Shown piece by piece: positions 28,501 to 60,438 of a DNA stretch of 64,000 nucleotides. The stretch spans positions 29,087,239 to 29,151,238 of the forward strand of contig NC_049979.1 of NCBI RefSeq assembly GCF_000003815.2. The letters are read 5' to 3'. The translations under genes were made by a program, and so were the position numbers. Position 1 is the stretch's first letter. Each line of letters starts with the position of its first letter. The notes below the pieces were generated by a model. It was not told the origin of the DNA and made no database searches. It saw only the letters and a list, made by a program, of their open reading frames with translations. Source of the DNA: Branchiostoma floridae (lineage: Eukaryota; Chordata; Leptocardii; Amphioxiformes; Branchiostomatidae).

Positions 28501-30643
28501 TCTAAAATATCATTTTCTACTCAATTTTTACATGATTCCCTTTTATAGGGCCCTCACACCGAAACCGAATTAGCAGGAATCAAGCAGAACCAGTGGCATG
28601 AATTCGTGTACACACACTTAATTTGGCGGGAATTCCAAATTGACCTCATATCCCCTTCACACGAGAATGAATGAGCCGAAATGCTGTCAGAATAAGTATT
28701 CTTTGTCTATTCCTAGGTATTTGTAGTGCATTCTAGACATTCTCACTGCGTTCTAGATATCCTCTTGGCCACATTCTGGCAAGATTCGAAATCGCTTGCC
28801 ATTTAGGTTCTCCATCGAATGAGATCAGAATGTGTCGAATAATGTTGAAATGCCGTAGAATGCGGTCATACTGTAATTAGAATACAATTTGAATGTCATT
28901 CGATATATCTCCACTTCAAATGTACCTCAAAAGTTTTGAGCATGTCAAAAACGTTCGGGCCAGCCAAAAGAACGGGCACAAATATCTGGAATGTAGAATT
29001 TCTAGAATACACTTCGAATTCCCAGGAATAGGAAATAATTTTCATTCTGACGGCATTCCAGCTCATTCTTGCTTTCGTGTGGAGGGGCTTTTAAGGCGCT
29101 TGTGACTGACTGTCTCGTTTTTTTTCCTCAGACATGGACAGAACCCACCTGTACAGGTAACACTACGGATGACGTAACCAGAAATGTGGACTTCACGCGA
29201 TCTCCACAGTTCGGCACTGAAGGTGATGCTTCGTTAAAACCCATGTATTAGGAAGATATAATGTAAGAAAGGAGTATTAAAAGAAAGAAACAATATCCTG
29301 ACTCCCGGGATTAGAATCCACGCCGATCCCGGGCCGCCAGATCTAAAAGTCTGACCGTGAGCCGCTTGGCATTGTCAGTTAAGTAGTCATTGAACCACAC
29401 TGTTACAACAATCATATTTCTCTAAAATGCCTCTGAATAGGGACTAACTAGTTAAATAAATGCATTGTCACTGACTTTTACGGGTTTACCTACCAAACGC
29501 TATCACGGAGGAATAGATCGTGATTTGATTTCAACATTCTCTAGTATCCATAATACCCCATATGTTATAATTTCCTATAACAATAGCACTGCTTAAACTA
29601 AATGTATCGGAAACAGAAAACACGAAATCGCTTTCTAAACTCAAACGAAAAAGCAATACAGCACTGCTAAATGAAATGTGAACACACGAAATAGCTTTCT
29701 AAACTCACATGAAAACGTAATATGCTGCATTGGCAATAACTTTTTTTCATAATCTTCTTCAGAGAACGCAAATAAAGAGCACAAACAAAAGAGAATTGTC
29801 TTCGGTGGAGAGGGCGATGAACCGGGCCAGTTTGACGAACCATACGCTGTTGTCGTGTCGTCTAGCAACGAGATATTTGTAGCTGACCACAACAACAGAC
29901 GAGTTCAAGTCTTCAGCATGACGGGCGTCTACCTCCGCCATTTTCCAACCATCGTTTCCGGAGAAGACTCTGTGACCATGGAGCCAGAGGACATTTCTAT
30001 CGACGAGGAGGGCCACCTGTGGGTGGTTGGGGTTGAAGAATCCGAACGATTGTCGACAGGGTTCATTATCCGGTATACCAAAGTGGGGCATCACCTAGCT
30101 ACACTTCATGCAACTTTCAGCAATAATTCTTTCTGTGGCATCGCGGTGGACTCACCTCGCAATCTTGTCGTAGTAACGGAGTTTTGGGACGCTTATGGGG
30201 AGGTTAAGCTTCTGAATTTCAACGGGAGTGTCGTTCGCAAATTTAGGACGGAGCAGGGCCCAGAGTATCCCGGGCTGGTCGCTGTGGGGAGGGAGGGAAA
30301 CCTGTTTGTGTCCGACCACTGGGGGGAAACAATTGTGTTTGTATACAACAACACTGGCCACTACCTTTCTAGTTTTGGGGGTGACAAAATTGGTGAGCTT
30401 CAGACAGAAATGGAAGTAGGAGAGAGAGTTGTTGTCATGGCAATCCGTACGGACAGTTCAGGAAACGTTCTGGTGGGGACTGGGATCGGCGGGACGGTGG
30501 AGATGTTTACCCAGGACGGGCGGTACGTTCGCCGCTTCTCTACCGGCATGTCCCATGCTGACGGTGTCGCAGTAGCACAAGGTGGACAGTTGGTCGTAAC
30601 AACGTCTTATAACAGTACCGTCACAATATTCTCACACTATTGA
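25538..30643 (+). CDS. Single-pass membrane protein with NPMY array and NHL propeller
   Basis: Exons 25538-26465, 27786-28004, 28299-28411, 29132-29222 (or to 29156) and 29763-30643 join in frame to 743 (or 721) aa. Residues 1-309 are Asp/Glu/Gln/Asn-rich, probably disordered, with two NQTLY motifs. Residues 319-372 hold five NPMY motifs, Tyr 325, 336, 347, 358 and 369, at 11-residue spacing. A hydrophobic helix spans about 387-412. The C-terminal part, from FGGEGDEPGQF to the end, forms about six NHL blades (FVADHNNRRVQVFS, LFVSDHWGETIVFVY and others). There is no signal peptide, and sequons NTT, NNS, NGS, NNT and NST lie after the helix, so I infer a type II protein: NPxY tail inside, propeller outside. 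Function unknown; NHL propellers usually bind protein or RNA, and NPxY motifs bind PTB or clathrin adaptors. Confidence 0.85.
26491..26875. mobile_element. MITE family O, copy 1, beside a splice donor
   Basis: The ends AGGCCATGTGTGTTGATTTG and CAAATCAACATGGCCT are inverted, extended by TTATGGATGACATCC/GGATGTCATCCATT. A second copy lies at about 34693-35082. This copy starts 25 bp after the exon 1 donor of the NHL gene. Confidence 0.8.
27206..27636. mobile_element. Foldback element with about 120-bp inverted arms
   Basis: The left arm starts GCCAAAAAGTAGTTACTTCAG and the right arm ends CAGTAACTGCTTTTTGGC. Shared inner blocks are GATATGATTTGGAAACGG, GACATTGGAGAAATCTTG and TTTTTATATCCT. It lies in intron 1 of the NHL gene. 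Confidence 0.8.
27821..27976 (+). repeat. 33-bp coding repeat (NPMY array)
   Basis: Five units of about 33 bp, with CCCAACCCCATGTACAGCGG as core, encode PNPMYSGNALQ-like residues. The first three units are nearly identical in DNA, including third positions, and the last two have diverged, so the array has expanded recently. Confidence 0.95.
28549..29092. mobile_element. Complex foldback repeat in NHL-gene intron 3
   Basis: GGGCCCTCACACCGAAA at the left and TTTCGTGTGGAGGGGC at the right are inverted. An internal CACACGAGAATGAATGAGC block with CTATTCCTAGG also pairs with the right arm (CCTAGGAATAG-type). It may be two nested copies. Confidence 0.6.
29281..29385 (-). mobile_element. tRNA-derived SINE head, family S2
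   Basis: The minus strand carries GATCTGGCGGCCCGGGATCG and GCGTGGATTCTAATCCCGGG, a decayed copy of the head at 24428-24590. Confidence 0.65.
29386..29762. other. NHL-gene intron 4, right part
   Basis: An ACACGAAATAGCTTTCTAAACTCA-like stretch occurs twice (about 29620-29645 and 29690-29710). Nothing else is seen. Confidence 0.4.
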
Positions 30644-33967: not shown

Positions 33968-36900
33968 ATGAAGTCGGAGCCAGTACCGCGAGTCCCACGG
34001 CGCCGACGCCCGACAAAGAAACGACAGAGAAATAGCGATACAGAGTCGACAGGACGACGCCCCAGCAAGCCCGCCTCGTACAACCAGAGTTCCCGGCCCT
34101 ATCACGAACGGGCGCTGAAACAGAGGACCTTGCTGACGGACAGGACCCACGAGAGGACGGTCTCACACATCAACGCAGAGAGAACAAGATTTTCTAGGAC
34201 GATGAACAGACAAGAGACGGACTTGCTGAACAGGTACGTTTATAACTATAGTTCACCTTTATCCGTGGGGTAACCCAAATCCGTTATTTCTAAAAACAGA
34301 GTATCCAGTCGACGGACCGTGGACCATGTTTTAAAAATTGCAGTTTGAAACCACCGTCCATAGTCTTGATATCCCTAACCATCCTGTTCATAAGAAACAA
34401 CGGATATATGTTACCCCGCGGATAAACGTGACTAACGTTACGCATAACCACCACACGTAAACGCTAAAGTGTAGCCAACAAGGCATTGCGTAGTTTTTTG
34501 CTCAACAACTTGAATCTGTTTCGTAAAACTCGTTTCATTTCTTCTCTGTGCTGCCCTATCACGGTGGCAAAGTAGATTTGTGCTCTTTTTGTAAAACGAG
34601 AGACTTTACAGAAATCAGATCCTCTACACGCTACCCCTCATTACCTACATCAATTTCACCACGTCCAATCATAGGTGCCAGATGTTAATCTTATTAAGCC
34701 ATTTAGACTCGATTATATGGATGACATCATCGCAATTTGGTCCATTTTCGACTATACTGTAAACAGCACAAAACAGCTGTATATGTAACGTTAAAACGAC
34801 TAGATATGTGTTGAAAGTTGCAAGAAACCTGAAAACGGGTGATAAGTCGTAGAATGGCAAAGGCAATTTCAAAGTCAGAGAAAAAGTTGTGAAAGAACAA
34901 AAATGAAGAATCTTTTGTTCTGTATACCATACATTGTGTGTTAAGTCATTTGTTTATCTCTCCCGACTACTTAGATTTCAAAATAACGGGGACTTTCTAC
35001 AGACTTTTTTTTATTCACATGCTCACATCAGTTTTGGGGTTCCCAGAGGATGTCATTCATATAATTGAATCAACGTGGCCTTAAGAACAAACAAACTAAA
35101 AGTAATAGCTGTTTAAACAAGACTGTAATTGCTTATCCTTATCAGATGGAGATAACGTTCCTCCGGCTTTCGAAATATTTACTTGACAAAGTATGAATTA
35201 TTTCACGGATTACACTGTATATCTATTTAAACGAAGTGAAATTGGGCGTGCCTAAATCTTCGTCTGTGAAGCTTCAGTCTTTTTGACGGTGGAATAACTT
35301 CCATATGTGATTCGTTAAGAGGGGATAATGATTTATAAATATTCTGATATACGTTATTTACTATACACAAGGCTGTCATTTTAAAGACAAGGATTTGTCT
35401 CAATGGACGTGAAGAGCAAATATAAGTACATAATGACATGTGGCAACCGTCGTATGGTATACATATATCAAAGAATGTCTAGAAGTTAGAAATTCCTCCA
35501 ATGATTGTATAAAAGTCCGTTCTAATCCCACACTGCACACGGTAGATTACCTTTATGGAACTGTTATGTACCAGTAGATGCCGTACTTTGTACAGCTGTT
35601 GTGCAATAGAATAATTTTTTTATTATCATGAATTATGCTGATAAGAGACTTCTTTGCATATCATTATAAATGTAATGAGACAGTCACTAGGGGAATTCAT
35701 GAAGTCGTGGAACTCTAGTTAGTAATGATGAATGATATACCCTGACCTGTGGTCCCTTCTCTCTACAGACTGATGGAGCTAGAGGCATGTCTCCCCAAGT
35801 ATCAGACTGACACTGACACAGTGGACACCGGGAAAGCAGTCAAACTGGACAAGACAAGAAAAAAGTTACCACCACAACATGAGGCGAGGGTTGCAACAGC
35901 ATCAAATTGTGAGTCGTCATCGGTAGAGGGATTCCCCGAAAACTCAAAAACGTCGTTGCGACCGAAAATCTCCGACAAACCAAATACGCCGTCATTGCAA
36001 CCGAAAATCTCCGACAAATCGAATACGTCGTCATTGCAACAAAAAAACTCCGACAATCCGAAAACGTCATCATTGCAACCGAAAAACTCCGACAAACCGA
36101 AAACCTCACCATTGCAGCCGAAAAACTCAAACAAACCGAATATGTCGTCATTGCAAACGAGAAACTCATCCCCACAACAGAACGATATTAATACTGAACT
36201 TTCAAGTGCGCCGCCGGAGTCGGAGAGTGATAATTCAAAGGACGTGCAGAAATCATCCGACCCTAACAGATTGTCTCCTGTGTTAGAAGCCTCGGAGGAA
36301 GGCAGCACTACTAGTGGTGCACCGGGTCTACCTTCAGTACCATCTAACACTACCAGCGCCAAGTGTGTTGTATGCGAGGGGAATGCAAAACAACCCGATA
36401 CAGAACACCGTGAATCTACCAGAAACGGAACTACCATTACCAACGGAGGCGTCCGTTTGCCACAAATAGACCAGCTTTCGGAAGAGGAGAGAGCAGAAGC
36501 CAAGCTGAACCCTGGCTTGCCAAGGTCACTACTACAGGCGAGGATACGGAGGCGAAGTGTTTCAAAACATGCCACATCTAACCCCAATAAATACCGCACC
36601 CATTTTCCGAATACATGCACAGAAGGGAAGACAGTCGAAGGATCTTCTAAGACAAGAGAATTTGAGGGTGAGAAGTACCCCTTGGAGAGGAACGTGCACC
36701 ACCTCCCACCCATTCGGACTGACCGCGAGTACGGCCGCCGAACGTGGCCGGGCGACGCTATGGAACTGGTGGGAATGAACGGATATACCTCGGACATCAT
36801 GCCCAAAGTCATGCAGGCTAGCTATAGCTACAACACGCGTCTGCATGACGATCAGAATAATAAACAGGAGATAACAGGCGATAGTTTACCTACGGTGGTC

Positions 36901-37038
36901 CGTTCCAGGGCCTTGATTCGAAGAGAACAGAAGAAACCGAGTAAAGATATGTACGTGTGGTTAGGGCTAGATTCTAAGTACCAGCTTCGCCTGATGACCA
37001 ACCCCGCAAAATCTGTCAGCCACACAGACAAGTCCTAA
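33968..37038 (+). CDS. Unrecognised disordered protein with 13-residue repeat
   Basis: Exons 33968-34233 and 35769-37038 join in phase 2 (Arg 89) to 511 aa. The ATG has a GCCATGA context. The N-terminus is strongly basic (PRRRRPTKKRQR at about 10-21, a possible nuclear localisation signal). Residues about 150-225 are five to six units of a 13-residue Ser/Lys/Pro repeat (SLQPKNSDKPKTS type). The C-terminal third (LSEEERAEAKLNPGLPRSLL, then Arg/Tyr-rich sequence to the end) is the least repetitive and most likely conserved part. No membrane helix, signal peptide or known domain is visible. Both exons are single long open frames with a consensus GTACG donor and TCTACAG acceptor, which supports a real gene. 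Confidence 0.7.
34251..34432. mobile_element. MITE family E, copy 2, beside a splice donor
   Basis: GTTCACCTTTATCCGTGGGG and CCCCGCGGATAAACGTGAC are inverted ends, with AAATCCGTTATTTCT/AGAAACAACGGAT inside. It starts 17 bp after the exon 1 donor of the two-exon gene. Confidence 0.8.
34693..35082. mobile_element. MITE family O, copy 2
   Basis: It pairs ATTATATGGATGACATC with GATGTCATTCATATAAT and shares CAACTATACTGTAAA-like, TATACCATAC and TTTTGGGGTTC blocks with 26491-26875. It lies in the intron of the two-exon gene. Confidence 0.75.
35083..35768. other. Intron of the two-exon gene, right part
   Basis: AT-rich, nothing recognised; it ends in a CTCTACAG acceptor. Confidence 0.45.
35953..36168 (+). 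repeat. 39-bp coding minisatellite
   Basis: About 5.5 units of 39 bp (core CATTGCAACCGAAAA, then CTCCGACAAACCGAA) encode the 13-residue repeat. All units keep the frame. Confidence 0.9.
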
Positions 37039-38040: not shown

Positions 38041-38410
38041 AGGAAAATATATGGGTTTCGTAAGTTAAATCAATATTTAATACGGGATTATAGAATATAA
38101 ATGAATGTGAAATATAGATAATAAAAAGTAATAATGATTTATATTGTTAATGAATACTTAAAAAATATGCAACTACTACTGCTACTTATTGTTATCATCA
38201 TCATTGATTACTTTGATATAGATATTGTATCATCCAGAAATTGCGATTGATTTAATTTCTATCATTCAATACACATATGGTTTTTCTAAAGAAAACTGCA
38301 TTGAAGCACATTTAAAGAAAATGTTCTTTGTCAGTCAACATCTTTCAACATAACAATCATATAGCAATTCCCCCACCGCACCACAATTCGTACCTATTAT
38401 TCAACAGGTA
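38041..38410. other. AT-rich spacer
   Basis: Nothing recognised. Confidence 0.5.
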
Positions 38411-38754
38411 TTAGTTATTATAGCTTAATGCTTATCATATAATTCCGCGACATTGAAATCAAGTTGCTTGATGAATGCTATGTGTTTTTGTTCCTTCCAA
38501 CTACCCATCGCCTCCCAGATCACAATAGAAAACGCCCCTGTCAGCACACATGTTAGACCCAAACCATCTAAAAGTGTCGGAGCGAATCCCAGCATTGCCC
38601 ACTGTAGGCCATAGGCCGAAAACGCGCTGAGCTAAATCATTGCAGTAACTGCATTTACCTCTACTGACTTTAGACCGAGGTAGAAGAACAGAACGCTCAT
38701 ACCATGAATGCAACAGCTTAGCACTAAGACTGTGGCAGTCACTGGTTCAAGGTG
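38411..38754 (-). pseudogene. Broken tandem copy of the transporter's last-exon end
   Basis: 38411-38754 repeats 38755-39098 as a direct 344-bp duplication without length change. Read on the minus strand it would encode the last 110 residues of the transporter (LEPVTATVLVLSCC...), but one glutamine codon has become TAG at 38632-38634. There is no splice acceptor or start at its upstream edge, so it is probably non-coding and part of the downstream UTR. Confidence 0.85.
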
Positions 38755-38768
38755 TTAGATATTGTAGT

Positions 38769-40425
38769 TTAATGCTTATCATTTAATTCCGCGACATTGA
38801 AATCAAGTTGCTCCATAAATGCTAAGTGTTTTTGTTCTTTCCAACTACCACGTGCCTCCCAAATCACAATAGAAAACGCCCCTATCAGTACACATGTTAG
38901 ACCCAAGCCATCTAAGACTGTCGGAGCGAACCCCAGCATTGCCCACTGCAAGCCATATGCCGAAAAAGCGCTCAGCTGAATCATTGCAGTAACAGCATTT
39001 ACCTCTACTGACTTTAGACCAAGGTAGAAAAACAGAACGCTCATGCCATGACTGCAACAGCTTAGCACTAAGACTGTGGCAGTCACTGGTTCAAGGTGCC
39101 ATGTGGTACTGGTAACGAACACTCCTATTCCGGCATACACTGAGCTAAAGGCGTACACGTACGTGACAACCTTTTCCCTCGGGGTGGATTCTAGAAGATA
39201 TTTGGCGCCGACGTCACCAATGGAGTGAATCAGTGCTCCAGTTACGGCTAGAATCTGTCCAAGAGTGACGTCTGCAGTATTAGCTGATGACGTCATGTTG
39301 ACGAAGCTACCGTAGCCCAGAAGCACAACACCTGCTACACACCACATGCTGCCGAGGACGGTTACTCGAGTTGGAATCTGGAATGATAGAAAATTTACTG
39401 CAGTAAAATGCCTGATAGCTGTCACATACGCTTTAAGTCAACTTTTAGTCCCCTGTCGTCAATACATATGAATTTACATGGTTAAGTACAGCAACCATAG
39501 TTTGAAGTAGAAACAGTCAGTTTTGCCCGGAGCTGTCTAGTTGACAATCTATCAACACGTTGGCAGGTAAAAACTATTACTGGTTGTGTCAATGAAACGT
39601 AAAACTTAAGGGTTAGTTCACCGCTTACCTGTTGAAGGAAGATACAGGAGAGGGTCACCACAAATACCGGCATACTCGCGTTCCAGACGGCTTCTGCGTT
39701 CGCAGGTGGAATATACTGGTACGACATGAACAGGCAAAGAAGACTGGTAAACCGCGTACATCCGAGAAAAATCAAGTTGGCCCCATGTTTCCAGCCTTTT
39801 GGGAGCATGTCTGTCCGCCGGTACACAGTGATGCTAAGTGCCACAAGGAAAATCAGCAAGTCATCCAAGAACAGCACCTGATATGGTGTGTATCCTCGGT
39901 CTATGACGTATCGTGATGTTGCTGGTACTGGACCTTTGAAGAAACTGCACGCTAGGCAAGCTGCCACACCCGAGAGGTTCTGAAAAAACACAGAGGCGTT
40001 ATCTCTTAAAAGTGTTAGATACATTTCATTCATTAAGATTGATGAAATTTGTAGTAATCATTTTCGATAAAATCTAGGCCTATAACGCTAGTTCCCATTT
40101 ACTCGTAGGGTAATCTGTATCCGTTGTTTTTAACAATAATGTATTTGGGGGTATCAAGTCGAGGGACTGCAAAGTTTTGAAAATATTGCAGTTTGAAGCC
40201 ACGGACCGTCAACTTGATACCCCTAAATGTTCTGTTTGTGAAAACAACGGAAATAGGTTGTCCGGCGGATAAAGGTGCATTGGCGTTACATGATAAGCCT
40301 AAACCTATATCATGGTGTCTTGCCTTCATCCAGAGTCTCCAATTGCCGCCCCTTTTCTGATCCTCAGAGTTTCCATTCCTCAGATGTTTGACCATCCCAT
40401 CGCTGTTGTCAGTGTCCTCACTCAT
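38769..40425 (-). CDS. EamA/DMT-family transporter (SLC35G-like)
   Basis: A membrane carrier of the drug/metabolite transporter superfamily, probably ten helices; substrate unknown. Minus-strand exons: 40324-40425, 39629-39979 and 38769-39377, all joined in phase 0, giving 353 aa (human SLC35G1 is about 365). Residues 1-34 are a polar cytoplasmic start. The first EamA half begins NLSGVAACLACSFFKG and contains the family-like YIPPANAEAVWNASMPVFV segment. The second half includes LAVTGALIHSIGDVGAKYL and ends QLSAFSAYGLQWAMLGFAPT before a short tail. Intron 1 has a GC donor (ATGAAG|GCAAGA) with a normal acceptor. Choosing the ATG at 40425 is supported by the in-frame GC donor 102 bases later. 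Confidence 0.85.
40091..40280. mobile_element. MITE family E, copy 3
   Basis: AATCTGTATCCGTTGTTTTTA pairs with AAAACAACGGAAATAGGTT, and GGGGGTATCAAGTCGAGGG pairs with GTCAACTTGATACCCC. It lies in intron 1 of the transporter gene. Confidence 0.8.
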
Positions 40426-51066: not shown

Positions 51067-54000
51067 ATGAATGGAGGCTGTTCAAGCGATGTGAGAACAG
51101 ACACAGGAGTTCCCGATGAGCGGATAAAGATAGCTGTGATAGGATGTGGTCTTCTGGGCACAAGAATCGCAGGTAAACTTTAGTTTGACAAACACACTAC
51201 AGCTTATAAACACTGTCCTGAGTTACAAAACTTCCTCAAAGAGACCTTAGTTTCTCCAAATTTGTTCCGAAATACCTATTACGAAGTTACAGCTTTGTCA
51301 GTGGAGTATATGAGTATCAAATGAGTATTTACCAACCTAATGATAACTGGATTATTAATTTATAATAGGAGAATCCTTGTACACAATCAGTTTATACTGT
51401 GCTTACTTTACGGTGTCAGTCAGACACCTTCCTCAGAGCTTCAGAATCTGACTGGAGTTCTGTTTCTTGCCGCTATTTGTAGCCAATGTAGGAGGCGCTT
51501 TTCCAGCGAGAACACTTTCCCAAACATGGGAACACTATCTCAACAGGGAAGACAACAGGCGGATCCGGTAGATCGGAGGCAGTGTAGATAAGAAAGTCAA
51601 CCCCACCAGTGATGAACCGGTACGAGGGGGGATACAAAGTTAGCCATGTTTGGGATGGTGTTCTCACCACAAAAGTGCCACCTACATTGGCTACATATAG
51701 CAGTGAGAAGCAGAACTCCAGTCAGAAGCTCTGTAGGAAGTTGTCTGATAGACATCGAAACATCAGCATGTAGTAAGTATAACCTGGTTGTGTGCAAGAA
51801 TTCTCCTATATTCTATATTCTACCAACCTGATGAAATTATTTTCGGCTGATAATGACGATTATATGTCATACCTGTGAAGCAAAAACGTTCAATACGGGT
51901 GTTCTGGATCGAGTGATAACTTTCCGTATCACACAGGTTCGAAAGTTGTATAACACAGGCTTCCTTCGAGTAAATCGAACTATTTTGAAAGGGCCGAATA
52001 TGGCACGGTTGAAAATTTGAATACTGGATTCGGATGTAGAATTGCTGTTGTTACAATCTTTTGTTCAAGGACGCAACATTTTCTCAACTTCTGGTGCATT
52101 TTGCATTTAAATATGTGTTTTCTTAGGTGGGTATGACATAAATAAAATATAACACGGTGTATTCCGCATCACCCTCAGTTCCAACCCTCCTGCGGGTTGG
52201 ATCACCCTCCGGCCTTCCCGTGGTCAGGCTGGTACTGTATTCTATATTTACGAATGTTTCCTCCCTCCAGGTGAACTGTGCCTGTGTGGTTGTGCTGTAT
52301 CCCTGTATGACAATGTTTCCTCCCTCCAGGTGAACTGTGCCTATGTGGTTGTGCTGTATGACAATGTTTCCTCCCTCCAGGTGAACTGTGCCTGTGTGGT
52401 TGTGCTGTATCCCTGTATGACAATGTTTCCTCCCTCCAGGTGAACTGTGCCTGTGTGGTTGTGCTGTATCCCTGTATGACAATGTTTCCTCCCTCCAGGT
52501 GAACTGTGCCTATGTGGTTGTGCTGTATGACAATGTTTCCTCCCTCCAGGTGAACTGTGCCTGTGTGGTTGTGCAGTGGCCATGTATGATAGTGACAACA
52601 CTGCCCTGAGTACAGCTGTGTCCAGGATCCATCAGGACTGGGAACACCTCAGGACACAGGGACTCCTTCTCAACCAACATCCTCAGGCTGTAAGAACCAT
52701 TTACCTGTAGCTTACTAGTACAATGTAGTAGCATATTCTTGTTAAACAGTTATGGACAAGACTTGTCACCAACTGCTCCACAGCTGACCGACCGACCAAC
52801 CTACTAGTTCACTTCTTCAAAAGATTTCTAGGGAAACTTATGATATTAATCCTCGTACATATAGAAAATAACATGGTGTAAAACCAAGGTACTAGCCTGA
52901 CTGCGAGCAGGATCACCCGAAGGCTGGAGGGTGATCCAACGTTAACCCGCTTGGGGGTTGGGACTGAGGGGATCAGATGCGGAAAACACTGTGTTGTATT
53001 TTACGGTACAGGAAGGCGAAGCCCAACCCTCTGCTTCCACAGCCTTTTACCTCCCCAATCACAGCCAGGTACCTATTTTAACGCCAGATTGAAGCAAGGA
53101 AAGTCGTGTGCACAACTCCGTGGCATGTCAGAAAATTCGTACCAAGGACCTCTGTGGTCTGTACCAAACACCCAATGTGTTTCGCCAACAGGACACTACT
53201 AGTATTTTTATCTTTCTTGAATTAGCTTTTGTCCTGAGATATTTAGATATTACTTTTAAAACGTCAAGCTTCTGTGTGTACAGTTACACTTACAGGTACT
53301 GTTCTTGTATTTTCAGAATAACCTGATCTGTGCCAGTAGTCTAGAGGCAGCTGTGGAAGGGGCCCAGTTTGTATTGGAGGCTGTTGTTGAGGACCTCCAA
53401 GTCAAAAGTGACCTCATGAGAAGTATGCTTTCCATACTTTCATAATAGTATACTTTCATAATAGTATACCACTTCTTATTTACCTTAAATTTTTGTTCCA
53501 AACACCTGTCTTGGCTTTGCTTGGTCAACCAAGATTCCAACACATATATTACATATCAAATATCATCACAATCTATCCAGGGTTTCTTAAACAAGTTGCT
53601 TGTAAGTTATGCTGACAAATGTCCAGAAACATGGACACACACACAGACAGACAGACACACACATACACACCAAACACAACCCCCATATTTCATGGTGGTA
53701 ATAAAAAAAGGCCATGTCAGTATACTACTAATGTGCAAAATCTCAAATTTCTACGAATGTAATGGGTAATATCTTCTGGTGAACACTTTTAAACGATAGG
53801 AAGTTTCTCTGTGGTGCTGTCCAGGGTGCTGAAAAGGTATGCAGTTGTTTGACAGCCTAGGAGCAGTATTCAGATGTTTGATATTAATGGCTTTCTTGTC
53901 AATGAATATGTTCAATTTGCATTGGGTGACTACTACCATGCTTTCTGGTTTAAAATCTGCACTTTTTTTTAACTTTTCAAAGTCCGAAAAGTGCTGCAAG

Positions 54001-57000
54001 TTGTTGCCAAAGTCAGAGTGTTCACCTTATTATAGGTTATTGCATGGATTAATGGGAAGTGGCCTCAATTAGAGCAAAGTGTTGTATATTTACAGTTTTT
54101 GGTATATATGTTGTTTTTGTGGTCAACATTTCTTGTGAGTGATTAATTCTAAGTTACGGTACTAGGCAATTCACAAGTTTGTTGAGACGATGCTAGCAGG
54201 GAACAAGTTAGCTATTTTACAAATAATTGCTTGGAGAAAAGACAAGAAAACACCTTAGACTTTGATTGATCCAGATCAAAATGTGTTCAAAATTGGTTTA
54301 TAGAGGATGTGTACTTTACTTGAGTTTTCACATTCCAATTCCAAAGATTTGTCTGTGACTTGCCAAAGTCATGGGTACGTATACGTACTTTAAAAAATAT
54401 ACGATTCATGTACCGGGTACTATATGTTATTTGCCCCTGTAGGAATATCTAGCACATGTTCCCAGACTGCTGTCCTGGGTACCAACACTCTCACCCTGGA
54501 CATCACTGCCATTTCAGAACATGTGCTGCACAAACAGGTAGGGAATAGTTTGACTTTATGAATATGATATAATATGATAATTATGAACAAATATGATATG
54601 AACAATTTTATAAAGATTTATACTACTTTATCAGGCAATTGTAAAGAAAAGGATTTGTTGGATCCATTTTCCTATGCAAAGCTGAGTCCTCATCACTGAA
54701 ACTCGATTCACCTCTGCTTGCTCACCCTGCCCATTGCACTATTGACCTGTTTTGCTTATCAATAGAAATGAACTTACCTTATTGGTCTCTAGCCAGTCAG
54801 CCGTCAAAGCCTAGATTTCAAATGTACAATATGGCGGACGTGCTGGCTGATTAAATTGCTTCTTTTTTTCAGCAAGACGGTAGTGGTTTCTAAGTGGTTT
54901 CTAAGCAGTCCATATCATCAATATAATGGAATGAGTTTGGCCTGACTACAAAAGTAAACTTCTCTATCCCTTTCTCTACTCCCACCAGAGACTTATAGGT
55001 ATACGATTCCTGTACCCAGTGTACACCATTCCAGAAGTAGAGGTGACTATGGGTGGCAACACAGATGCACAGGTTCTACAGAGAGGTTTGTATTTTCATC
55101 CCTTTTCACCACATTTGAGCACTAAGACTGCAAGATTCTAATGAAGTCTCCCAAGTTTCTAATGAAGTGGCATCAGTGTGGCATAATGGTAGGTCCTGGG
55201 ATCAAATCTCCTACCATGCCCCATTGACGTTGTGTTGTACCCTTAGGAAAGACACTTTACATGTGCCAAACAGCAGTTACTCAAGCAACTGGATCTTTTA
55301 TCAGTGACATGACTTTCCTCACTTCATTGAATTCCCCTTTATGTAACTCAAGTTTAACATGTCTGCCTGCTAACCTGACCAATGTGCCATGTTTTTGTCC
55401 AGTTGGTCGGCTGATAGAACACTTGGGTAAGGTGTTGTTTGTGAGGACTGGTGACCCCCTCATCCTCACACCACAGCAGGTTCAGTCCAGGCAGATCGGT
55501 GAGTCCAGTACCCATTTATGTCTTCAGGATGAATTTTTTTTCTGTCCCACTCATCTAAGTGGTCAAATTGAAAAGAAACTTCCTGTATTACCTGTCCTTA
55601 GTACTGAACACCATCCACACACATACCTGTCCCTAGTGCTGAACACCATCCACACACACACAGACCTGTCCCTGGTGCTGAACACCATCCACACACAGAC
55701 CTGTCCCTGGTACTGAACACCATCCACACACAGACCTGTCCCTGGTGCTAAACACCATCCACACACAGACCTGTCCCTGGTGCTGAACACCATCCACACA
55801 CAGACCTGTCCCTGGTACTGAACACCATCCACACACAGACCTGTCCCTGGTGCTGAACACCATCCACACACAGACCTGTCCCTGATGCTGAACACCATCC
55901 ACACACAGACCTGCCCCTGGTGCTGAACACCATCAACACACAGACCTGTCCCTGGTGCTGAACACTATCTACACACACACACATACCTGTCCCTGGTGCT
56001 GAACACCTTCCACACACAGACCTGTCCCTGATGCTGAACACCATCCACACACAGACCTGCCCCTGGTGCTGAACACCATCAACACACAGACCTGTCCCTG
56101 GTGCTGAACTCCATCCACACACAGAACCTTCTCTATAGAATTAATTACGCTCACAAGTCTATGACAAGCTGGAACAGATAAGGGCTTTGGACAGTTGTTG
56201 TGTGCTTTTGTGAATGTGTCAAATATTCTTGCTTCTACAATGTGTATCTGTACAATTACAATATGATATCAAAAATACTACTGCATATCAGGTTTACATC
56301 GCTAAACTATATTTGTTGGATCACTTTGGCCAAAATCTTAAAGATGAAAGGAGAGGATCCCTACCTACGACCTCTTTTTTTCCAGGACAGTAACCAGAAA
56401 CAACATTGTTTTTCCTAAGCCTAATTTACAACATTTTAAGCCTAAATTAATCTCATGATGATTCCTTACTTTGCAGCATGGAAGGAGAAGGTTCAGGCAC
56501 AGCAGAGAGACAGGGGACCAGGATCACATGGAGGATTAAATGCTTCTAGTCATGCAGTAGTTAGCATGCTACAACATGTACACTCAGCAACTAACTATAG
56601 GACTGAAACAGAGGACAACAGACATACAGGTAAGCAACATTATGATAGAAAATACAGCCGACCCTGTAAGTGTAACGAACTTAATGTCACACCCGGGCTG
56701 CAATAATATGTTCAATACGAGTGTTTCGGATCAGTTGATATTTTGAGATACTTGTATCACAATGGCTTCTATGGAATTATTTGTACGCTCTTCGTGTGCA
56801 CTGGTGTTAAAAACTCTGATACCAAATTTAGACTTGTCTTTATTGCTGTCGTTACAATTATATGTTTGAGGATGACATACATGAAATACAACACAGTGTA
56901 CTATCGATCATCTTCGATCCAAGCCCTCCTGTGGGTCGTATCATCTTCTGGCCTTTGACCGCCAGGCAATCTGACCCGCTATCTGCATTGTACCTCGGAT

Positions 57001-57899
57001 AGTTCTGAATACAGTACAGTGCTGAATTCTCTTTGTAAATAGAAACGTGTAGATTTGAATTTTTCTAGCACTGTGATATGTCACGTAAGTGTTGGGAGTG
57101 TTTATTTTCATTTGTAACAATTATAATATTTAATATTTAGTAAGAGGAAAAATTGGTCCAGGAATAACTTCTCCATTCTCCATCTCTCTCATATTACGAA
57201 TACATATATGGTACCAGGCAGCTTTGGGGCTTAAAGTTGAAGGTTACCTTGTTTTATGGTACCTTTTCCGGCAGAATATTATGGCCTGACTTTACAGTAT
57301 ATAGGATGGCCAGTAGACCATATAAGTGCCGTTTGTGTAATAGCTGTCATAAATAAGACGCATTCTGTGCCAAGCTGAGCTTGTAAAATATGCTCAGAGC
57401 TTGAAATACTTTTTTCTACATACCTGCACTGGTGCAGGTACATTGTAACATTGGAAATTACCTGCACCAGACAAATTTTACCTGCACCACAATTTAGGAA
57501 GTATACTAAAATCTGTTCAGAAACCAATGTCATTATTCATTCTATACACAATAAATGCATCAGGTAAAGATCTATGATAGACCTACAACATAGTACATGA
57601 CTGTATATATAAACCCATGCCAGTACATGGACCAGTGCAGGTTAGGTGGTACCTGCACTAACCTGCATATGCTAGTGGTATTTCGAGCCCTGATGTTGGT
57701 TCTAAAATGTGTTCCAGATTCCTCGCCGAGGGGCAATGAATGCATCATCTGTACAGAGCGGGAGAGGAACTGCCTGTTGAGTCCCTGTAACCACCTGTGC
57801 TGCTGCATGGAGTGTGCCAAGTCCCTGACAAACAGGCACCAGAACTGCCCCATGTGTCGGACACCTATTGCTGAGGTCCTGAGGGTCTTCAGTGCGTAG
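51067..57899 (+). CDS. 3-hydroxyacyl-CoA-dehydrogenase-like NAD-binding domain fused to a RING finger
   Basis: Exons 51067-51172, 52550-52689, 53317-53422, 54443-54537, 54989-55085, 55403-55498, 56477-56629 and 57718-57899 join in frame to 324 aa. Residues 20-213 form a 3HCDH-type Rossmann domain: IAVIGCGLLG (G26, G28, G31), YDSD at the end of strand 2 (NAD type), VLEAVVEDLQVK and LGTNTLTLDI. The usual catalytic HFFNP...E motif reads R155-FLYP...E167, so His is Arg. The usual C-terminal helical substrate domain is absent. A Gln/Ser/His-rich linker (about 215-265) leads to a C3HC4 RING of the IAP/MUL1 type: C273-II-C276, C288-N-H290, C294-ME-C297, C308-PM-C311. I infer a catalytically dead NAD(H)-binding E3 ligase. 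I know no named vertebrate protein with this layout. Confidence 0.88.
51863..52248 (+). mobile_element. Family K element, copy 3
   Basis: It runs from TATGTCATACCTGTG through CTTCCTTCGAGTAAATCGAA to the hairpin start AACACGGTGTATTCCGCATC. The right hairpin arm is shortened, and the copy directly abuts the tandem acceptor array. Confidence 0.8.
52253..52549 (+). repeat. Tandem array of exon 2 acceptor units (59/51 bp)
   Basis: Five units start at 52253, 52312, 52363, 52422 and 52481 in the order 59, 51, 59, 59, 51 bp. Each contains TTTCCTCCCTCCAG, then GTGAACTGTGCC, i.e. the acceptor and first bases of exon 2 of the dehydrogenase-RING gene. The true exon is the sixth member, with acceptor ending at 52549. 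Confidence 0.95.
52858..53004 (+). mobile_element. Family K element, hairpin-only copy 4
   Basis: It has only the hairpin: AACATGGTGTAAAACC to AACACTGTGTTGTATTTTA, with GGATCACCCGAAGGCTGGAG within. It may be a 5'-truncated or recombined copy. Confidence 0.65.
53005..53205 (-). mobile_element. SINE copy, reverse orientation
   Basis: GAAGCCCAACCCTCTGCTTCC and CAGCCAGGTACC match the reverse complement of the SINE 3' region (GGTTGGGCT) seen at 32.2 kb and 58.1 kb. The tRNA-like head near 53200 is decayed. Confidence 0.55.
53434..53682. repeat. Short duplication and CA-rich tract in intron 3
   Basis: TACTTTCATAATAGTATAC is repeated at about 53434-53468, just after the exon 3 donor, and ACACACAGACAGACAGACAC lies at 53635-53655. 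Confidence 0.6.
55160..55270 (+). mobile_element. tRNA-derived SINE fragment
   Basis: GTGTGGCATAATGGTAGG (A box), CTGGGATCAAATCTC (B box), then ACCCTTAGGAAAGACACTTTA, a variant of the CCTTGGGAAAGGCACTT core. It is related to 5822-5945. Confidence 0.65.
55591..56126. repeat. 34-bp minisatellite in intron 6
   Basis: About 15 head-to-tail units of CCTGTCCCTGGTGCTGAACA plus CCATCCACACACAGA, with single-base variants. There are no unique spacers. Long minus-strand open frames (VCGWCSAPGTGL type) arise from the repeat and are not genes. Confidence 0.97.
56683..57031 (+). mobile_element. Family K element, copy 5, most diverged
   Basis: TTCAATACGAGTGTTTCGGATC, AGGATGACATACATGAAA and AATACAACACAGTGTA follow the family order, with the right arm ending CAGTACAGTGCTGAATTC. 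It lies in intron 7. Confidence 0.65.
57394..57692. mobile_element. MITE family R, copy 2, just before the RING exon
   Basis: CAGAGCTTGAAATACTTTTT at the left and GTATTTCGAGCCCTG at the right are the family ends. It ends 25 bp upstream of exon 8, so it supplies part of that exon's polypyrimidine and branch-point region. Confidence 0.8.
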
Positions 57900-59052: not shown

Positions 59053-60438
59053 GCTAATTGTTCGCATGTTTGTAAAACAGGTTCATACTAATAAAGACAC
59101 TGTTTATACTTGTACTGATAACCTTCATCCTGTGTATTCTAATACCAGTGTTGATAACATCTCGACATCTCTTCGGTGTAAGGTTGTAAAATATATGTTG
59201 ACATGTATTTATAAACTTACACCAAAGATGTAAATATTAATCTTTACCACACACAAAGTGCCCATGTCATTAATGACACTAAGATACAACAGACGTTCAT
59301 ATTTATAAGCAACCATAAGTGTTATTCAATGAACAAACTGTACAAAATATACACCTTTCTGTTGTTAATATTGAACATCAAAATGTTACAGAACACATCA
59401 TTCTTGATTCATGCCACCAACTATGACGTCATAGAAAACATGACACTGTCAGCTGGTTAGGAACCAGGTGTTACAGTAACTTGTCTCGAAGCATTGTTTT
59501 GAGAAGCAAACATTGCATATTAATGTTTTGATGTTAACTTTGCTTTTCTGCTTCTAAAAAAAAATATATTTTTGGGAGTCACAACCCCAGGTTTTGAATT
59601 GGCTGACTGCAGGAATCAAGTGTTTATTTGTAAGATTTGTTGTCTCTTGAACATCAAAAGGGTGTATATTCTGTAGAAAAGTCTTTGGTCATTGAATAAT
59701 GACTTGTTATAATTATGGCCCAATGTGATCAGGAAATGTCAAATTTTGGTGACGTCAGTATTTTAACTCCTTACAAATCAAGGATAACAAAAAAAGATGT
59801 GATACAAGTTTCATCTCTTGACTTGTATGTTTATTGCCATAAATACAGAGACTGACAGATACATAGTCATCGATATACCAACAGTAATATAGGCCAAGAT
59901 ATACATATACATACAATATATATATATATATATATAATACGAGTTTACTTGACTTTCAATGTGTAAAAGCTACCGTCCCATGATTACAACATACGTATAA
60001 TGTCACAAGAAAATTAAACGTTACACGATTTCAGACACACAATTATTACAGTACCGGTAGGTAGGATTTATACAGTTACATGTACAGTCCAACGGAATTC
60101 GCCTACTTGGACCAGTTTCAACTGTCTATACCATCGTATTAGGTAGCACACAGTCACATACATGTACAAGCATGTTAAGGTTACATCTACACATAGGAAT
60201 TATTGTTATGCATAAACCTGATAGTTTTAACCGTTTCTTAGTCAAACAAAAAAAGCCTGCACCTGTTTGTACTTGGATCATCAACATGATGAGATTTGCC
60301 ACTATCGTCTTTACAATCCGCTTTTTGCAAAAATATAAAGTCACTAACTCTCTGTCAAGCTGTATGGGTTCTCTCCTATTGCAGCCAAATTCAATAGTCA
60401 CAGTGCTACAACCCTACTGTACCGTGCCAAAGGTACAA
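59053..60438. other. Gene-free stretch
   Basis: A diffuse repeat at 59440-59760 shares GAGAAGCAAACA and AACATCAAAAGGGTGTA with about 19.0-19.4 kb. A (TA)n tract lies at 59916-59936. On the minus strand an AATAAA (59830-59835) could end a long 3' UTR of the gene at the right edge. Confidence 0.4.

Follow-up and report, generated by a model that had tools for sequence, protein, structure and literature searches.

Does a locus of the lancelet Branchiostoma floridae encode, in one protein, a dehydrogenase-type domain that has lost its catalytic residues and a RING domain of the kind found in ubiquitin ligases? The locus lies on the plus strand at 51067-57899 of a stretch of 64,000 nucleotides (contig C1:29087239-29151238, NC_049979.1), which is hereafter called the window and whose own numbering is used throughout. 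Genome scans were confined to one animal genome, that of the window itself (513 Mb, 431 contigs). The gene model comprises eight exons with GT/AG at all borders and agreeing phases, which join into 975 nt encoding 324 amino acids and a stop codon; the exon structure put forward in the initial annotation was reproduced with exact borders, and the Pfam search it had proposed recovered both domains in the spliced product, namely 3HCDH_N at residues 21-192 (128.3 bits, cut-off 22, E 4.1e-37) and zf-C3HC4_3 at residues 271-317 (53.8 bits, E 1.7e-14). These E-values place both domains far above chance, and at the level of the predicted sequence a genuine and unusual pseudo-dehydrogenase-RING gene model is confirmed. 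An in-frame stop codon precedes the ATG by two codons, and the G+C content is 0.51 in the exons versus 0.36-0.46 in the introns. A search of the genome gave 41 matches, of which only the best candidates were scored; all eight exons were recovered here, as eight pieces, and both halves were seen together nowhere else. We lean towards the reading that the locus is a single gene encoding a pseudo-dehydrogenase ubiquitin ligase.

The N-terminal half, of the type of 3-hydroxyacyl-CoA dehydrogenase (HAD), an enzyme of fat breakdown, was compared with 86 prokaryotic relatives, all of which were counted; 80 of them were collected in a single scan that started from an alphaproteobacterial protein, which makes the sample clade-biased, and six came from plasmids (28-32% identity to the HAD part). 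Exon 1 (51067-51172) carries the start codon and the GxGxxG loop (G26, G28, G31), with each of the three glycines present in 85 of the 86 relatives and the remaining row gapped there, and exon 2 (52550-52689) covers the end of beta2 with D49/D51, residue 49 being acidic in all 86 as well. The EAVVEDLQVK motif with the retained E103, E107 and K112 lies in exon 3 (53317-53422), the NTSS motif, here NTLT, in exon 4 (54443-54537), and the HFFNP motif, here RFLYP, in exon 5 (54989-55085). N132, T133, E107 and K112 are shared with every one of the 86 relatives, and so is E167, the counterpart of the histidine-anchoring Glu170 of human HAD. The catalytic histidine (His158 of human HAD) is replaced by R155; a histidine stands there in 86/86 relatives and in all five paralogous loci read in the lancelet genome. 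The codon of R155 is CGA, two changes away from CAC or CAT, and a single base error thus does not account for it. The first Ser of the NTSS motif, which has a catalytic role in HAD and is likewise present in all 86 relatives, is replaced by L134, followed by T135. In the column of the HFFNP Asn the protein has Y158 (relatives: N in 4/86, S in 81/86, Y in 0/86), a change that appears less telling than the loss of His or Ser. These substitutions, together with the retained E167, are those that had been read off initially, and all were correct. In human HAD, His158, held in place by Glu170, takes the substrate proton; the active site is situated between the NAD domain and the domain for dimerisation, the latter supplying Asn208 (PMC10988713). 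Judged by these motifs, the protein has lost its catalytic side and retained its nucleotide side.

The helical C-terminal domain of HAD enzymes also appears to be missing, and the strongest evidence for this comes from the protein itself: PF00725, the model of this domain, had no match in the 324 residues at E values up to 1, and the 3HCDH_N and RING matches lie 78 residues apart, fewer than the 97 positions of PF00725. The suggestion that a linker and the RING have taken the place of the helical domain is thereby borne out. Exon 6 (55403-55498), which was unmatched by a local HAD profile, spans the transition from the NAD domain to the linker, and exon 7 (56477-56629) encodes linker without a Pfam match and has no stop in the frame used, compared with two and five in the other frames. 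By a loose pattern, a C-domain-like motif occurs in 86/86 prokaryotic relatives. A search of introns and other frames for a concealed C-domain was negative both with the local profile, built from the 86 relatives and run on 5,522 stop-to-stop open reading frames from the window and seven paralogue stretches, and with PF00725 on the genome. In the window the profile matched only five N-domain exons, reaching model position 169 of 301 (E 0.0003 to 0.48); of the seven paralogue stretches, four (L119, L120, L121, L124) yielded clear C-domain pieces, L122 only weak ones (E 2.4 and 6.9), and L118 and L123 none. PF00725 matched the genome 11 times at E values up to 1, on contigs C2, C3, C9, C14 and C143, with no match on C1, the contig of the window.

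The C-terminal half, by comparison with solved structures, looks like a competent RING. Exon 8 (57718-57899) encodes all eight zinc ligands in C3HC4 order (C273, C276, C288, H290, C294, C297, C308, C311), the linchpin Arg after the last Cys (R312), the C-terminal tail R320-V-F322-S-A and the stop codon. Its closest solved RING chains are those of MGRN1, MDM2, MEX3C, MUL1 and the IAPs, and the C3HC4 pattern is that of the tail-active C-terminal RINGs (cIAP1/2, BIRC7, XIAP, MDM2, MUL1; PF13920). By phmmer, F322 aligns with residue 63 of the 65 in the cIAP1 chain, residue 60 of the 62 in that of BIRC7 and residue 64 of the 66 in that of XIAP, so that an aromatic residue stands where the IAP chains have their third-last residue, and the spacing 312-320-322 is identical to 606-614-616 of cIAP1 (8 and 2), with which the linchpin Arg and the RxF tail are shared. 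In cIAP1, R606 is the linchpin, the donor ubiquitin is held by R614 and F616, which belong to the second protomer's tail, and the F616H variant is defective (PMC6349121). A linchpin Arg helps to hold the ubiquitin-charged E2; XIAP, unlike the present protein, has Tyr at this position and gains activity with Arg (PMC12326332). An aromatic residue also occupies the corresponding tail position in each of four further RINGs read in this genome (31-41% alike), two of which continue for several residues beyond it. The zinc ligands, the linchpin R312 and the cIAP1-like tail spacing make a tail-dependent, dimeric ligase likely.

From these two halves we infer splicing into one mRNA, ligase activity, a dimer, nucleotide binding and a role for the N-terminal module. 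The protein would be a soluble ligase, homodimeric via the RING and tail, whose RING would bind ubiquitin-charged E2; the tail (R320, F322) of each protomer would pack against the donor ubiquitin of its partner, the arrangement known from cIAP1, BIRC7 and MDM2. The HAD-type Rossmann domain would no longer oxidise hydroxyacyl-CoA and would act as a binding module, either for choosing the substrate or, when NAD(H) is bound, for tuning the ligase. The retained E/K, Asp and glycine motifs favour nucleotide binding, and Y158 and L134 would speak against a normal nicotinamide pocket. An NAD(H)- or CoA-responsive ligase built from a dead enzyme had been proposed in the initial annotation; the sequence agrees with a dead HAD domain and an active-looking RING in one model, and it leaves NAD(H) sensing plausible, but CoA sensing is the less likely part of that proposal because half of the cleft would have gone with the missing C-domain.

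Alternatively, the Rossmann domain may be a nucleotide-free scaffold that recruits substrates, for example by attaching to HAD enzymes through their C-domains, in the manner of the cognate NAD domain. Three positions on the nicotinamide and substrate side are altered (R155, Y158, L134), as this would allow, and substrate-recruiting pseudoenzymes for ligases are known, TRIB1 with COP1 being an example (PMC10211241); a pure scaffold, however, would have no need of the glycine motif, D49, E107, K112 and N132, all of which are kept, and by inspection no targeting presequence or PTS1-like (peroxisomal targeting signal 1) end was apparent, which makes an encounter with mitochondrial HADs unlikely. 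We consider such a scaffold possible, if on the unlikely side. A ligase gated by NAD(H), in which occupancy of the pseudo-dehydrogenase by NAD+ or NADH switches the dimeric RING and protein turnover reads the redox state, seems to us rather doubtful in this specific form.

Splice-site strength was judged by a crude consensus score ranked against all GTs or AGs of the window. Exon 7 has one of the strongest donors, equalled by only 0.4% of the GTs, exon 6 has a good one (4%), and exons 2 and 3 have weak ones (43% of the GTs as good). An AATAAA lies at 59090, 1.2 kb 3' of the stop codon. Two introns contain minisatellites. In intron 6, a 35-bp unit is repeated in 15 copies at 55590-56125. At the end of intron 1 (52253-52574), 5.7 copies of a 59-bp unit repeat the acceptor and the start of exon 2, giving six acceptor-like sites (CCCTCCAG followed by GTGAACTG); if exon 1 is spliced to one of the five upstream sites and read through, a stop follows, and the frame is kept by the last only. 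These repeats could be splice decoys or yield non-productive mRNA.

Several results weigh against a single gene for a pseudo-dehydrogenase ligase. The best NCBIfam match is to a 3-hydroxyacyl-CoA dehydrogenase subfamily at 119 bits versus a cut-off of 508, and none of the 25 listed models (of 26) reached its curated cut-off, as befits a divergent domain; a genome-wide exon-by-exon search with 3HCDH_N returned 16 matches, with none of the exons of the model among them. Since the N-domain exons of the window themselves score weakly or are missed, exon 6 included, a C-domain exon of similar divergence could have escaped these scans, and the genome-level absence of the C-domain is weak evidence. 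Descent from a particular HAD family could not be read from a tree of 16 rows (including 11 of the 86 prokaryotic rows and four paralogues with exons missing), in which the query sat unplaced on a very long branch. The RING of MGRN1, the best RING match, is internal (272-326 of 539), and the tail mechanism is therefore not certain. The five decoy copies of the exon 2 acceptor in intron 1 could mean relaxed constraint. Finally, exon 8 has a middling acceptor (32% of the AGs of the window as good), and one AATAAA lies within intron 7 at 57550.

The last two points would also fit an erroneous union, in the model, of two adjacent genes, one for a degenerate HAD N-domain (exons 1-6) and a separate small RING gene (exons 7-8 or exon 8), and so would the frame of exon 6, which can run on to a stop at 55716. 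Yet the good donors of exons 6 and 7 imply that something should follow them, neither AATAAA nor ATTAAA was found in intron 6, the phase agrees at every join, and a HAD N-domain standing alone, with no C-domain, would be unusual. We regard a wrong join as quite unlikely; one gene is the simplest reading of the locus, and it remains a model, in which phase and splice sites are what link the RING exon to the others. That the gene is instead decaying, with a frame open by chance, is very improbable: the lack of a second copy among the genome matches, the very long tree branch and the acceptor decoys of intron 1 would suit a pseudogene, but eight exons are open with canonical sites, the zinc ligands, linchpin and tail are complete, and the loss of catalytic residues with retention of those on the nucleotide side is a selective rather than a random pattern.

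A paralogue or second haplotype combining an intact enzyme with a RING was not present among the 41 genome matches, whose best candidates were scored. One RING-like match inside a paralogous locus (L007, E 2.3) overlapped the HAD exon of that locus and was dismissed as chance. When intron positions were compared by eye with the displayed paralogue exons none was exactly shared, and the phase-0 intron before RLIGIRF sits one codon from that of two paralogues. Among plasmids, 626 of 72,556 records matched, and the annotated ones among the 30 listed were HAD enzymes; on viral contigs no relative was found with six short patterns from one protein, by which only close relatives are detectable. Within the lancelet genome, adjacent copies of a HAD gene (L122, L123), which presumably resemble lambda-crystallin/CRYL1, were noted at C9:21051000-21068000, with a third copy of which a single piece was recovered, with an internal stop. 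The names HADH, HADHA, EHHADH, CRYL1, MEX3 and neuralized were given to loci of this genome by resemblance and are our assumption.

The proposed protein shares with the NAD-binding domain of HAD enzymes (HADH, HADHA, EHHADH, PaaH; PF02737) the Pfam match, the GxGxxG loop, the E/K motif, the NT pair and the anchoring Glu, and differs from them in the changed His and Ser, in a C-domain not present in the protein and in the fused RING; it differs from RING proteins of the cIAP/MDM2 type in that its N-terminal module is a dead dehydrogenase domain. The nearest known design is that of UEVLD (UEV3), in which a dehydrogenase domain is likewise fused to a domain of the ubiquitin system. To our knowledge UEVLD carries no RING, and it differs further in having a ubiquitin E2 variant (UEV) domain and a lactate/malate dehydrogenase fold in the opposite order; neither of these families was among the 14 Pfam families listed at E values up to 1 for the 324-residue protein. 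The function of this dehydrogenase domain on an E2-like domain is stated as unknown in PMC12513931. The pseudokinase TRIB1 is comparable as a dead enzyme that presents substrates for ubiquitination (PMC10211241); unlike the lancelet protein it has a kinase fold and recruits COP1 in trans. No report of a HAD-RING fusion was found in the open-access literature, subscription papers and domain databases being outside this search, and an automatic annotation may well exist. If the model is true, the gene could encode a protein-destruction switch that might read metabolism, and we know of no ligase described as sensing a redox cofactor via a captured enzyme domain. It would offer a compact test case in which dead catalysis, a kept nucleotide-side motif and a complete RING are combined, and as a parallel to UEVLD it could show that fusions between dehydrogenases and the ubiquitin system arose more than once.

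Elsewhere in the window, two minus-strand open reading frames with EamA transporter matches were found at 38406-40057, and one of the two overlaps, at its low-coordinate end, with a tandem duplication of 344 bp at 38406-39098 (two copies with 91% matches). On the plus strand, an open reading frame at 29753-30640 has an NHL-repeat match (Pfam E 4.5e-16), and a frame of 430 codons at 35746-37035, with no Pfam match at E values up to 0.01, holds a 39-bp (13-amino-acid) repeat at 35951-36167.

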